This document shows, piece after piece, positions 32,822 through 37,121 of a stretch of 64,000 nucleotides of DNA. Source of the stretch: Mangrovibacterium lignilyticum (lineage in GTDB: Bacteria; Bacteroidota; Bacteroidia; Bacteroidales; Prolixibacteraceae); contig NZ_WKLH01000002.1 of the NCBI RefSeq assembly GCF_010882175.1, positions 744,001 through 808,000 on the forward strand, given 5' to 3'. How positions within the stretch are numbered: the stretch's first letter is position 1; each line of letters opens with the position of its first letter. The notes under the pieces are model-generated. The model searched no databases. It had not been told where the DNA came from and worked only from the letters and a program-made list of their open reading frames with translations. Position numbers and translations under genes: made by a program.

Positions 32822-33817
32822 TCAAAACGCCCCGTGGTATTCGTTCCCCAAACGGAAAAAATTGCGGGCCTGCTGCATTTTCCGATCAATCTCGAACAGC
32901 TCGTCGTAATAGGCTTTTTCGTGTTCGTTGGTTTGAATAATCTTGTGCATGCCTCCATTTTTAATGACGACACGGCGGTCGGCCTGTAAGATGAGTAAAG
33001 GATCGTGTGTGGCCATCAGAACGATCTTTTCCTGGCTTACCAACACTTCCAATGCTTTACGTTTATCGACCCCGGCATTTTCAATTTCGTCAATCAATAC
33101 AATGGGCGCTTGACCAATACAGGCCACATCGGCAATCATTAAAGCACGCGATTGGCCACCACTTAAAAAGGTCACCGGTGTAGTCGGGTCGAAGGTTTCT
33201 CCGGAAAGCTGGTTGGCTAAGTCAATAACTTCGGCCACTTTTTCATCGGCATTGGCCAGGAAACGGCTTTGAGCATGCAACAACAAAAAACTTTGCACAT
33301 CCATGTCGAGCACAAAGTTCATATTCTGCGTAATCTGCGCGATGAGCTTTCCTCCGAAACTACTCTTCAGGTTTTCGTCGGGCAGTTCGCCATTCAGCAA
33401 CACCCGCCGTTTGGTTGGAGTGTCAAAATCGGCTAACCATTCAATGTCGGCTAACAAACGGCTTTTCCCCGATCCGGTTGGACCGACAATACAGGTAATC
33501 TCTCCGGGTTTAATCAGGAGGTTACAAGCTTCAGGTTCGCCCAGTTTATTTTGTCCACCGATCACTTCCAGTGAATGAATTTGCTGAACAGAGGCCGCAT
33601 CCTGCATCCCCTCAACAAAGTCGACAAACTGACCGGCTAGTTCATCGGCATTGGTTTCAAACTCGTTCCAAAATTCAGCCGACAAGCTGGCAGCCAGTGC
33701 TGCAAAACTTTCATTGGCGACCTCTAAACGATAGGCCGACAGAAAATCAAGCACTGGCGGGCAATCCTTCACCAATTCGCTTAAGGGTTGTTGTATGATG
33801 TTTTCAGTAGCGATCAT
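32822..33817 (-). CDS. Stand-alone ABC ATPase with DUF1858-like N-terminal domain
   Basis: A 331-residue soluble ABC-type ATPase. The first 75 residues form a helical region resembling DUF1858/ScdA_N domains (LSELVKDCPPVLDFLSAYRL). Then comes one nucleotide-binding domain with Walker A GPTGSGKSR at about 112-120, signature LSGGQSRALMIADVA, Walker B PIVLIDEIENA and H-loop MATHD. A charged helical tail follows (YYDELFEIDRKMQQARNFF). No membrane segments exist here or in neighbouring genes, so it is unlikely to be a conventional importer. Its start overlaps the GTPase stop by 4 bases (ATGA). It is the last gene of a four-gene operon. The function is unknown; a role in loading or disassembling a metallo-cofactor is an inference. 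Confidence 0.85.
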   Translation of the reverse strand: MIATENIIQQPLSELVKDCPPVLDFLSAYRLEVANESFAALAASLSAEFWNEFETNADELAGQFVDFVEGMQDAASVQQIHSLEVIGGQNKLGEPEACNLLIKPGEITCIVGPTGSGKSRLLADIEWLADFDTPTKRRVLLNGELPDENLKSSFGGKLIAQITQNMNFVLDMDVQSFLLLHAQSRFLANADEKVAEVIDLANQLSGETFDPTTPVTFLSGGQSRALMIADVACIGQAPIVLIDEIENAGVDKRKALEVLVSQEKIVLMATHDPLLILQADRRVVIKNGGMHKIIQTNEHEKAYYDELFEIDRKMQQARNFFRLGNEYHGAF

Positions 33818-34509
33818 GACAGTTTAATTTTGCGGTTCAGGCCCACCTGAAAATCTTCTCCGACACGGGTTTCACCCAAACAATACGAACACAAGGCAGC
33901 AGGCATTGAAAAACGAAGTTTAAGTGTTTCAGCATTGGCAACCGATTGGGCTAAACCAATCATCCGAGCCAGTTTATCAGCGCCCTGCCCTGTAATTCCA
34001 TTGATAAACAAGACCGTCGCTTTGGGATTCACCTGTTGGATTTTAAAGCGGAACACTTCCCGCTCGGCTTGCGAAACCAGATCGCTTTTAGTGACAATCA
34101 CGACATCGGCTAATTTGAGCATTGGCCCTGTCTTTTGCGGTGTATTGATTCCACTCAGGTTGTCGAGCACACAAATGGCCATCATTTCTTTTAAATGCGG
34201 AGCACAGCGGTTACACAAACCGGCACTCTCGGCAATTAAGGTAGTTAGTTGGTTCGACCGGGCCCAATCCAGGCAAGCTTCAATATTCGACACAAAATAA
34301 TGATCGGGACAAAGGTTTCCGGCAATACCGGTTTGAGCTGTAATACCGACCGAAGCATAACGTTCTTCATCGAGCGAACTGATGCAGTCGAACTTAATAA
34401 CCCCGCAGTGCTCTTTTAGCCCCGGTACACTTTCAATCATTTTTAAAATGACCGATGTTTTTCCCGACGAGGGCGGTCCGGCAAAGGTTATCAGGCGAAT
34501 TCCATCCAT
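33814..34509 (-). CDS. CobW/HypB/UreG-like GTPase with two CxxC motifs
   Basis: A 231-residue SIMIBI-class GTPase of the metallochaperone type. Walker A is GPPSSGKT at 11-18 and the base-specificity motif is TKSD at 140-143. Two cysteine pairs, LCNRCAPH at 99-102 and LCSYCLGE at 207-210, could bind a metal or an Fe-S cluster; another Cys lies in GVIKFDC. HypB and UreG insert nickel with GTP energy and use similar cysteines. The gene begins 9 bases after the TsaA-like gene and overlaps the ABC ATPase start by 4 bases, so translation is probably coupled. It is not HypB or UreG proper, and no hydrogenase or urease genes are nearby; the client is unknown. Confidence 0.85.
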   Translation of the reverse strand: MDGIRLITFAGPPSSGKTSVILKMIESVPGLKEHCGVIKFDCISSLDEERYASVGITAQTGIAGNLCPDHYFVSNIEACLDWARSNQLTTLIAESAGLCNRCAPHLKEMMAICVLDNLSGINTPQKTGPMLKLADVVIVTKSDLVSQAEREVFRFKIQQVNPKATVLFINGITGQGADKLARMIGLAQSVANAETLKLRFSMPAALCSYCLGETRVGEDFQVGLNRKIKLS

Positions 34510-34518
34510 AGCTTCTCT

Positions 34519-35022
34519 TTATTTCGTAAAACGATCGTCCGAACGTTGACTGTGAGCCATCTTATCATCCTTTTCATCCAACCAACCCGAAACAGCATGG
34601 AGGCGGTTATCGGTTTGCCTGAAAAAAGGTTTCAGGTCCAACAAAGGAGTCCCGTCCAACATGTCAGCTCCTTCAAAATAGATCCGGTTTCCTTCGATGC
34701 GGCTTAACTTAACCGTCGAGATACCGATTGCATTTGGACGTTTGGGCGAACGGGTAGCAAATATACCGTGCTTCTTATCGTCCATAAACGGTTTTACCAT
34801 CAGCTCATGTCCCTTTATTTCGTGCAGGTGGTAGATGAGGGTAATATGCGAGAACGCTTCCAGATCGGTCAGCCCTTCCTGCAGCTCGGGATTCAACTTA
34901 ATCATTCCTTCCATGCCTTTTGCACCAACAGGTTGAATAGGCATATTCACCAGGTCATGATGTGGCGTGTGAATCAATCCGATGGGCTGAAAACAAATCG
35001 ACTGTAAATCGGCTATACTCAT
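34519..35022 (-). CDS. TsaA/TrmO-like SAM-dependent methyltransferase
   Basis: A 167-residue protein of the TsaA (UPF0066) beta-barrel family. Family marks are FQPIGLIHTPH at the start, VGAKGMEGMIKL, LEAFSHITLIYHLH and the signature GIFATRSPKRPNAIGISTVK, then DMLDGTPLLDLKPF. In Escherichia coli, TrmO methylates t6A37 in some tRNAs. Here the gene overlaps the upstream SBP-like gene by 4 bases (ATGA) and sits with a GTPase and an ABC ATPase. A substrate other than tRNA, such as a cofactor or metal-binding small molecule, is therefore possible; that is an inference. The C-terminal tail is short. Confidence 0.88.
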   Translation of the reverse strand: MSIADLQSICFQPIGLIHTPHHDLVNMPIQPVGAKGMEGMIKLNPELQEGLTDLEAFSHITLIYHLHEIKGHELMVKPFMDDKKHGIFATRSPKRPNAIGISTVKLSRIEGNRIYFEGADMLDGTPLLDLKPFFRQTDNRLHAVSGWLDEKDDKMAHSQRSDDRFTK

Positions 35023-36221
35023 ACAACTGCTTTTTGTTTCCAGACTTCCATAAATACATCGCGGATTTCATCCTTGAGTTTTCCAATATCGTTATTATTC
35101 AGAAAGTCCCACCCCAGCCATTTCACCGGTTCGGGAAGGGTGTTTTTGACATCGGGATGGATGGCCGGGAAAAAACGACTCACCAGCAGTTCACCGGTTT
35201 CCTTCGACAACAGGAAGTTCAGCAACGAGCAGTGTTTCTCCATGGCCGATTTCCGCACCATCATAAACACAGGGCTGGCAATCGCACCGTCAGTGGGCCA
35301 AAGCAATTTCACGTTCGGGTTCTTTATTTTCTTTGCAAAGAAATAAGGCATAATATAAATCGTCGCAGCATCGTCCCCACCCTTATCTGCGAGCTTCACC
35401 ATCTCTGCAGGGTGTTTACCGGTCCTGATATTTTGAGCCATTTGCCGGATGGCATAAAAACCATGCTCCTTGTAGAAAGGCAGCATGATCGCATTACAGA
35501 AGAAATCGTCCTCCCCCCGCATGATAATCTCATCGGTAAAGGCTTCAGACAACAAATCGGACCACACTTCAGGGATTGGCGTGTTACCCAAACGTTCAGT
35601 ATCAACGGCCATCACCAACATATTTGCCGTCAGCATGGTGTAGTTGCCCGACGGATCGGCAAAACCCGACTTCTCCAAATACGGGTTGGGCGTGTAGGGT
35701 GTAAAGGTTTCGAAAATGCCTTTCCCCACAAAGCGCTCCTGAAACGGACGGTGAAAGAAGTTATTGACATCGGAAGCCAGCATAATCTCCGGCAACTCAT
35801 CGGCCGACGAAACATGATCCAACATCGGGTAATACGACAGCTCGTGATTCACATTCCCTTCCGTCAGGTAATCCAAACCGGCATACGCTTCGGGATGATC
35901 CAAAATATGGCTTTCCAAAAAATCTTTAAACGGATTGCGCAGTCCGCAAGGCAACATGGCCATAAAGTGTAACTCATGAATGGCCTTCTCTTCAGTCGAA
36001 ACCGCTGCGCCCTGGCTTAACTGTTCGTTCAGCATGCCCAGGAAAGCCTCAACATCGATGTTTGCAGAACGCAACAATGTCCCCAGTCGGGTAAACCGGC
36101 CTATCTTCTTCAGGCTTTCGGGCTTGAAGTAACTGGCAAACCCACTTTTTTCAAATTGAGGAATTAAATCGGGATACTGATCTGCAATTGTTTGAATGGT
36201 ATCGTTTTGGGTGATCGGCAT
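35019..36221 (-). CDS. Cytosolic solute-binding-protein-like protein with DUF1858-like N-terminus
   Basis: The chosen start is ATG 36221 (MPITQNDTIQ), giving 400 residues; the frame to 36311 adds a non-conserved stretch across the promoter. Residues 1-65 resemble DUF1858 (TIQTIADQYPDLIPQFEKSG, later IDVEAFLGMLNEQL). The remainder looks like an iron-type periplasmic binding protein of ABC importers (LPEIMLASDVNNFF, GVGK-like FVGKGIFETF, WSDLLSEAFTDEIIMRGEDD, LLWPTDGAIASPVFMMVRKS). There is no signal peptide or lipobox, so it should be cytosolic, which is odd for this fold. It is the first gene of the four-gene operon. It probably binds a small anion, metal complex or cofactor. Confidence 0.75.
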   Translation of the reverse strand: MPITQNDTIQTIADQYPDLIPQFEKSGFASYFKPESLKKIGRFTRLGTLLRSANIDVEAFLGMLNEQLSQGAAVSTEEKAIHELHFMAMLPCGLRNPFKDFLESHILDHPEAYAGLDYLTEGNVNHELSYYPMLDHVSSADELPEIMLASDVNNFFHRPFQERFVGKGIFETFTPYTPNPYLEKSGFADPSGNYTMLTANMLVMAVDTERLGNTPIPEVWSDLLSEAFTDEIIMRGEDDFFCNAIMLPFYKEHGFYAIRQMAQNIRTGKHPAEMVKLADKGGDDAATIYIMPYFFAKKIKNPNVKLLWPTDGAIASPVFMMVRKSAMEKHCSLLNFLLSKETGELLVSRFFPAIHPDVKNTLPEPVKWLGWDFLNNNDIGKLKDEIRDVFMEVWKQKAVV

Positions 36222-36647: not shown

Positions 36648-37121
36648 ATGAAACCTGCATCTTATTCGCAATTGTATATTCACATCATTTTTGCTGTGGG
36701 TAATCAAAATGCATCCATAACCCCCGCCATCCGCAAACATATATTCATGTACCTGGATGCAACGATTACACAAATGGGACACAAGTCGATTATTGTTAAC
36801 GGGACGTCCAATCACGTTCACCTGTTCTTTGGTTTGAATCCCAATAAATCCATTTCGGAGACTGTTCTTGATCTCAAACAAAATTCGGCCCTTTTTATCA
36901 ATGAGGCCAAGCTTTGCCCGGATCAGTTTTACTGGCAAGCGGGTTATGGAGCCTTTTCATACAGCCATTCGAACGTTGTTCCGATTTATTACTACATTTT
37001 AAACCAACATATTCATCACCGCACGAAAAGCTTTCGGGAAGAATACATCTGCATTCTCGAAAAGTTTGAAATCAATTATGATGAGCGTTACCTGTTTGAT
37101 TTTTGGGATCAGGCTGAATAG
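36648..37121 (+). CDS. IS200/REP-type Y1 (HUH) transposase
   Basis: A 157-residue single-strand DNA transposase of the Y1 family. The metal-binding HUH motif is NHVHLFF (His 56 and 58). The nucleophilic Tyr is probably Y116 in VPIYYYILNQHIHH, and the C-terminal part FREEYICILEKFEI...DFWDQ is typical of Bacteroidota members. No TnpB partner is present, so it is an IS200-like element or a domesticated REP-associated transposase. REP-like palindromes are scattered 2-7 kb away. Possible short hairpins flank it (ACGG/CCGT near 36588-36603) but element ends are not certain. Confidence 0.9.
   Translation: MKPASYSQLYIHIIFAVGNQNASITPAIRKHIFMYLDATITQMGHKSIIVNGTSNHVHLFFGLNPNKSISETVLDLKQNSALFINEAKLCPDQFYWQAGYGAFSYSHSNVVPIYYYILNQHIHHRTKSFREEYICILEKFEINYDERYLFDFWDQAE

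Follow-up and report, generated by a model that had tools for sequence, protein, structure and literature searches.

The stretch analysed here, the window, comprises 64,000 nucleotides of Mangrovibacterium lignilyticum contig NZ_WKLH01000002.1 and contains an operon of four minus-strand genes, encoding a solute-binding-like protein (SBP), a TsaA-like protein, a GTPase and an ATP-binding cassette (ABC) ATPase. Both the open reading frames (ORFs) and the sequence bear out the spacing given in an earlier sequence-only reading: adjacent genes overlap by 4 bases, are separated by 9 and overlap by 4 again. We find that three of these genes form a conserved unit whose grouping, recurring across 52 loci, is more than chance, and that most genomes carrying this unit also have nitrogenase genes. 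The genes of the window operon are as follows.

36221 (ATG) to 35019, minus strand: SBP, 400 amino acids; the ORF list starts it at an upstream TTG, 36311
34519..35022, minus strand: TsaA/TrmO-like S-adenosylmethionine (SAM) methyltransferase domain, 167 amino acids; an optional member
33814..34509, minus strand: HypB-like GTPase, 231 amino acids, with CPDH, LCxRC and C-terminal CxxC motifs
32822..33817, minus strand: soluble ABC ATPase, 331 amino acids

The conserved three-gene unit

GTPase loci were collected in one pattern scan, with one genome per species, which covers close relatives only (53-91% identical). The resulting 52 loci span six phyla by record names: Bacteroidota, Chlorobi, Firmicutes, Proteobacteria, Deferribacteres and Spirochaetes. 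A plasmid-collection search added one further locus, from Fusobacterium vincentii (NZ_CP084075.1, L005), a 2.1-Mb record labelled as a plasmid that carries the three-gene unit. Genes in the loci are the longest non-overlapping ORFs, named by cluster, BLAST or eye unless a family search is stated. Within 2.5 kb of the GTPase gene and on the same strand, the SBP is present in 50/52 loci and the ABC ATPase in 51/52; where a partner is missing, the contig is short (L014, L054) or the locus truncated (L055). The conserved core consists of three genes, for a leaderless SBP, a HypB-like GTPase and a soluble ABC ATPase. Distances between loci increase in step for all three proteins (r 0.78-0.91 over 49 loci, after setting aside L002, L003, L004 and any locus without the full set), and mean divergence per site is 0.37 for the GTPase, 0.45 for the ABC ATPase and 0.69 for the SBP. 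The structure alignment left out L005 and five other members. Domains and motifs of the window proteins that recur in the analysis are listed here.

36006..36221, minus strand: DUF1858-like helical domain of the SBP, N-terminal, residues 1-72 (Pfam, 30.9 bits; predicted helices)
35946..35948, minus strand: SBP Cys92, within an LPC motif that follows strand 1 of the binding fold; kept in 51/53
34300..34311, minus strand: GTPase C67-P-D-H70 motif, 56/56 rows
34204..34215, minus strand: GTPase C99-N-R-C102, directly after the ExxG motif, 56/56 rows
33880..33891, minus strand: GTPase C-terminal C207xxC210, 55/56 rows
33578..33817, minus strand: N-terminal helical domain of the ABC ATPase, residues 1-80 (hhalign to the SBP N-terminus; predicted helices)

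The SBP matches Pfam SBP_bac_6 (230.6 bits) and has a type II two-lobed fold, with six helices at the N-terminus of its AlphaFold2 model (predicted local distance difference test, pLDDT, 91.4). Top matches in the fold search are 4edp (a Clostridium binding protein), FutA, STM0429 and FbpA. The protein had been described as lacking a signal peptide, and none of the 53 SBPs has a signal-like start: in a crude hydrophobicity test on uncurated ORF starts, 0/53 SBPs versus 18/25 FecB controls showed a hydrophobic stretch among residues 1-60. A same-genus genome (L004, 3-3775) holds genes for a TonB receptor, a leaderless SBP, FecB and a double-TOBE protein (Mop-like, by BLAST) in one group; its SBP is a paralogue (25-26%).

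The GTPase matches Pfam cobW (PF02492, 41.1 bits), and its best NCBIfam match, hypB TIGR00073, scores 62.6 bits, below the cut-off of 121.2. Invariant or near-invariant motifs are CPDH, LCxRC, SQAERE and the C-terminal CxxC, so that the two CxxC motifs seen in the window protein (C99/C102 and C207/C210) extend to nearly every aligned row. C67 and H70, a predicted metal site in the G domain, align with the C-H pair of HypB, and C99xxC102 falls near the next HypB Cys, out of register. By eye, the window GTPase lacks the CxCC motif that defines COG0523 according to PMC9164220. No hyp genes were seen near the GTPase by eye in the gene lists, with no profile search made.

The ABC ATPase (Pfam ABC_tran, PF00005, 51.5 bits) has intact Walker A and B motifs, LSGGQ, an invariant QNMNF after the Q-loop, and H271. 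Because its catalytic motifs and QNMNF are kept, it should be an active ATPase. Its AlphaFold2 model (pLDDT 88.9) has six N-terminal helices, and the structures 9h78 and 9h7x, both of SMS ATPases, are among its best 50 fold matches; gene lists inspected by eye show no SufB/SufD-type scaffold beside it, with no profile search made. As stated in the sequence-only reading, it comes without a permease: the ORF list of the window holds none in the operon, and the core unit has none of its own. That reading also had both the SBP and the ABC ATPase begin with a DUF1858-like domain. For the SBP the Pfam score is borderline, just below the cut-off of 32.2, and exceeds it in two relatives (L072, 45.2 bits; L005, 54.0 bits). 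The ABC ATPase has no Pfam DUF1858 match at its N-terminus (0/19 members), and the stretch from the window matches no Pfam family; its predicted helices and its N-terminal profile nonetheless agree with those of the SBP (hhalign 82%, E 1e-5, 68 columns). Since the two profiles align and both proteins have six helices, a shared N-terminal helical domain is suggested, pointing to docking between them.

The fourth gene is not part of the core. TsaA matches Pfam TrmO_N (PF01980, 135.7 bits) and NCBIfam TIGR00104 (114.6, above the cut-off of 93.25), and is the only window operon protein above an NCBIfam cut-off among the matches listed (for the ABC ATPase, the best 25 of 138); solved relatives are 7btu, 1xqb, 2nv4 and 3okx. 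It stands beside the unit in 3/52 loci and, in addition to these, in the window and in two same-genus genomes, and we rejected a four-gene unit, TsaA being only local. What had been proposed as one soluble four-protein machine survives as a soluble, co-inherited set that is metal-related by family (HypB-like, Cys-rich), with three genes rather than four; the suggested search for co-occurrence of all four genes succeeded for the SBP and ABC ATPase and not for TsaA. A class I methyltransferase (one cluster, with a fold other than that of TsaA) adjoins the unit in 18/52 loci, one of which, L025, has both, and another class I methyltransferase does so in genus g104 (L096). The operon context suggests that TsaA has a substrate other than tRNA t6A. 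In g104 the ABC ATPase gene is followed by one for a Cys-rich protein, zinc-ribbon-like by eye, and then by the class I methyltransferase gene.

L096, 7980-8225; L097, 8120-8365; L098, 7958-8200: Cys-rich protein of 80-81 amino acids in genus g104, with no good family match

Association with nitrogenase and molybdenum genes

The link to nitrogenase and molybdenum (Mo) genes, absent from the sequence-only reading, is the main new result. A nifH gene scores above cut-off in 44/49 carrier genomes searched; L005 (Fusobacterium), L046, L055 and L051 were outside this search, and a NifD search of the plasmid collection lists by name ten of 21 genera, the commonest ones. The window genome has one nifH above cut-off and no AnfD above cut-off, and by eye its nif operon reads nifH-glnB-glnB-nifD-nifK-nifE-nifN-nifB-fdx-nifV. 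AnfD is above cut-off in 16/50 carriers, and two more are vnfD-like (686-729 bits against the AnfD model), giving 18/50 with an alternative nitrogenase. In some loci the genes are neighbours: L035 has an AnfD gene, truncated at the contig edge, and a nifH-type gene, both facing towards the cluster; L037, L043 and L045 contain nif-type genes, and L016 a NifB-like match (36%).

Samples from two groups compare carriers with non-carriers. Among 100 Paenibacillus genomes, 11 carry the GTPase at E < 1e-130; nifH is present in 11/11 of these versus 43/89 others, and an alternative nitrogenase in 9/11 versus 6/89. Among 393 Bacteroidales genomes, nifH is found in 4/8 carriers of the close form versus 25/385 others, or in 3/7 carriers without the window's own genome. 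By genomic association with nitrogenase the unit is a candidate member of the nif/molybdenum regulon; the association is weaker in Bacteroidales. We rejected the idea of a strict nitrogenase factor, as carriers without nifH above cut-off exist, one of them (G310) with narG above cut-off within 3 kb of the unit instead.

By eye, Paenibacillus loci L061, L062 and L063 also contain NifH-like genes with NifDK-like partners amid cysteine/methionine metabolism and transporter genes. One NifH-like form, scoring 416-428 bits with the nifH model, was counted by eye in 11/11 Paenibacillus GTPase carriers versus 5/89 others; these extra genes are possibly kin of methylthio-alkane reductase.

Mo genes (ModE-type, Mop, ModA) are present in 12/52 loci, all within the 38 loci of at least 14 kb, and ModB in L055 makes a thirteenth. 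A ModE-like protein is encoded next to the ABC gene in L009 (below cut-off) and L011; ModE with Mop domains occurs in L035 (above cut-off) and L048 (by BLAST), Mop in L039 and L099 (above cut-off) and in L029, L031 and L038 (by BLAST), and ModA in seven loci (L017 and L044 verified above cut-off). A Mop gene closes the TonB-SBP-FecB group in L099, and likewise in L004 by BLAST to ModE TOBE domains. Importer genes are nearby in part of the loci: within 12 kb and on the same strand, FecB is found in 22/52 loci, FecCD in 18/52 and an importer-type ATPase in 23/52, and in six Chlorobi loci the gene after that for the ABC ATPase encodes a TonB-type protein (L043 verified). MolBCA is of the FecCD type. 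It had been asked whether the SBP and ATPase accompany a permease and a signal peptide in relatives; FecCD is indeed nearby in the 18 loci, and the SBP itself is always leaderless, FecB being a second, separate binding protein. NifQ, a known Mo donor, is present in 2/50 carriers, with no match in 48/50.

Mo use was followed with MoaC, which was found in 12/21 carriers chosen for the search. Of nine carriers without nifH above cut-off, five have MoaC (G310, G262, G365, G453, G107); in G398, G361, G258 and G069, nifH is present and MoaC absent. Because MoaC is missing in some, Mo fits most but not all carriers.

Several observations weigh against a role in supplying Mo to nitrogenase. No Mo gene is found within 10 kb in 39/52 loci, though 14/52 are shorter than 14 kb. 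By eye, window ORFs at 28-42 kb include no Mo or nif genes. In fold, the SBP most resembles proteins that bind ferric iron, phosphonate or sugar phosphates, and the best 50 of its 592 matches do not include ModA. Four carriers have neither nifH above cut-off nor MoaC, namely Alkalispirochaeta alkalica G108 and the metagenome-assembled genomes G062, G076 (1.2 Mb) and G077, the last with a NifH-like match of 340 bits, below cut-off; Mo use is not evident in them. The Fusobacterium record also lacks MoaC, and its unit adjoins genes resembling, by eye, a ZnuABC-type divalent-metal importer. Half of the Bacteroidales carriers have no nifH, and the SBP occurs in only 3/61 relatives of the window genome, all of the same genus, in which one of four genomes is without it. 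Kinship among the loci is a further caution: 16/49 genomes in the nifH search bear the titles of Chlorobi, which are usually diazotrophs regardless, and the GTPases of the Paenibacillus carriers are 84-100% identical to the query. As many carriers are kin in this way, Fisher tests overstate their independence.

Sister GTPase and ABC ATPase systems

Twenty-three Bacteroidales genomes without the close form (type A, as in the window) hold a more distant GTPase, type B (206-216 bits). All 21 sister loci examined (L075-L095) have an ABC ATPase, and in 20 of them a NifS/IscS-like desulfurase was recognised by eye (L082 verified). An iron-sulfur (Fe-S) protein of family PF04060 (L077 verified) follows in most sister loci that are long enough, as do Crp-type genes and, in wider regions, Rrf2-type genes. 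Taken together, the Bacteroidales sister operon reads like an undescribed metal-sulfur assembly system. Type B was rejected as the same system as type A: no SBP was recognised in its loci, and there is no nifH link (2/23 genomes, p 0.68). The sister-type desulfurase and Fe-S protein, for their part, have no BLAST match in type A loci. A third form (L074/L105, L098) combines an ABC ATPase, GTPase and Fe-S protein; in L098 no more than 3 kb separate it from the SBP type. GTPases of the unit and sister forms share their Cys motifs, and in a tree rooted with two HypB sequences a long branch sets them apart from these. Because the sister forms share the pair and its Cys motifs while partners vary, the GTPase and ABC ATPase are the constant core across forms.

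Further sister operons were noted at L102-L104, L106 and L107 in Bacteroidales, with an ABC ATPase, same-family GTPase, desulfurase, PF04060 protein and Crp/Rrf2 genes. In the window itself, a transposase-like gene (36648-37121, plus strand), by its look presumably of the IS200/REP type, lies on the strand opposite to the operon and starts ~430 bases upstream of it.

Cargo, rival explanations and known systems

The unit is probably a cytosolic relay for a metal or metallocofactor. That it is, more specifically, a three-protein soluble relay passing an imported metal, likeliest Mo (or tungsten), to nitrogenase or molybdoenzymes is a proposal we regard as evenly balanced, and for the window organism Mo as the cargo falls slightly short of that. 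In such a relay, a TonB receptor and a FecB-FecCD-ATPase importer would bring chelated metal into Gram-negative cells. The leaderless SBP would then bind the metal inside the cell, perhaps via Cys92, and the ABC ATPase may dock on it through the similar helical N-termini, ATP driving binding and release by analogy with importer ATPases. The Cys/His sites of the GTPase could take up the metal and pass it on in a GTP-gated step, as HypB and UreG, GTPases that hand on nickel, would suggest. A SAM methyltransferase (TsaA in the window, class I elsewhere) may modify the ligand or chelate. The cargo, most likely Mo or else tungsten, would be delivered to nitrogenase or molybdoenzymes under Mo scarcity; the form captured by the SBP type is perhaps thiomolybdate or an Mo chelate. 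A broader scheme is tentative: an undescribed two-motor family of GTPase and ABC ATPase, in which the SBP type captures Mo in the cell and feeds nitrogenase and molybdoenzymes, taking the place of NifQ in anaerobic diazotrophs that lack it, and sister types build or load metal-sulfur centres.

Mo is the best single cargo and iron its main rival. A relay that strips iron from a ferric chelate after import and supplies it for assembling Fe-S or nitrogenase clusters, which these cells need in large amounts, is unlikely, although several observations favour it: the SBP is near FutA, FbpA and AfuA in fold and sequence profile, FecB/FecCD importer genes accompany part of the loci, the sister operons contain a NifS-like desulfurase, an Fe-S protein and Crp/Rrf2 genes, two SMS Fe-S assembly ATPases rank among the fold matches of the ABC ATPase, and iron would suit the Fusobacterium and Alkalispirochaeta carriers. 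It leaves the repeated ModE, Mop and ModABC neighbours unexplained, however, and the desulfurase and Fe-S protein that mark the sister operons do not match anything in type A loci by BLAST.

Less probable again is one chassis with a lineage-dependent cargo, Mo for type A in diazotrophs and zinc, manganese, nickel, cobalt or iron in other branches, as in the G3E family. Within a single GTPase group, types A, B and C form branches whose partners differ, and the four nif-less carriers and the Fusobacterium record without MoaC would fit; yet the GTPases of Fusobacterium (54% identical to that of the window) and Alkalispirochaeta (60%) resemble it as closely as many from diazotroph carriers do, which speaks for a single chemistry. 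We consider it highly improbable that the unit is a regulator, with the SBP as sensor of a metabolite or metal and the nucleoside triphosphatases (NTPases) signalling, for example, Mo limitation. In L009 (71.2 bits, below the cut-off of 98.5) and L011 the ABC gene is directly followed by one for a ModE-like helix-turn-helix protein without a TOBE domain, and the core contains no enzyme target, but two intact NTPases with conserved Cys/His exceed the needs of a sensor and most loci examined show no recognised DNA-binding partner next to the core. Importer parts that have lost their permease, or chance neighbours, are scarcely credible even though SBP and ABC ATPase belong to importer families, given that the three genes stay adjacent despite divergence, motifs are invariant and signal-like starts are absent throughout.

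To our knowledge, the route of Mo to the iron-molybdenum cofactor (FeMo-co) in diazotrophs lacking NifQ is an open question. The relay proposed here would be a direct candidate for that supply, on account of its company with nitrogenase genes and its place next to mod, nif or anf genes in some loci. If correct, it would also provide an ABC ATPase acting on a binding protein without a membrane, and a GTPase branch that is new and has partners of its own. The earlier statement that no described system has this composition agrees with the literature searched, in which no description was found; NTPase metallochaperones are already known as a kind, and none is known to us that combines an SBP, a GTPase and an ABC ATPase.

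Comparison with known systems sets each component apart. ABC importers have a binding protein with a signal peptide and a permease in the operon, neither of which the window unit shows. FutA, FbpA and AfuA are type II SBPs with a fold like that of the SBP of the unit, which differs from them in its lack of a signal-like start, its extra DUF1858-like domain and its conserved Cys92. SufC and SMS ATPases are likewise cytosolic ABC ATPases without a permease, whereas the ATPase of the unit has its own helical N-terminal domain and a GTPase and SBP as partners. With HypB and UreG (G3E), the GTPase has in common the P-loop, ExxG and Cys/His residues near the HypB metal site; it differs from HypB in lacking the N-terminal extension, in its extra C-terminal CxxC and in its SBP and ABC ATPase partners. 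MolBCA is a lower-affinity Mo importer according to PMC7759655. MolBCA, ModABC, ModE and Mop function in membrane uptake or in sensing, whereas the unit, being cytosolic, would take over once uptake is complete; several loci have Mod, ModE and Mop genes near it. NifQ, although an unrelated protein, has the role that is proposed for the unit too, Mo supply to FeMo-co.

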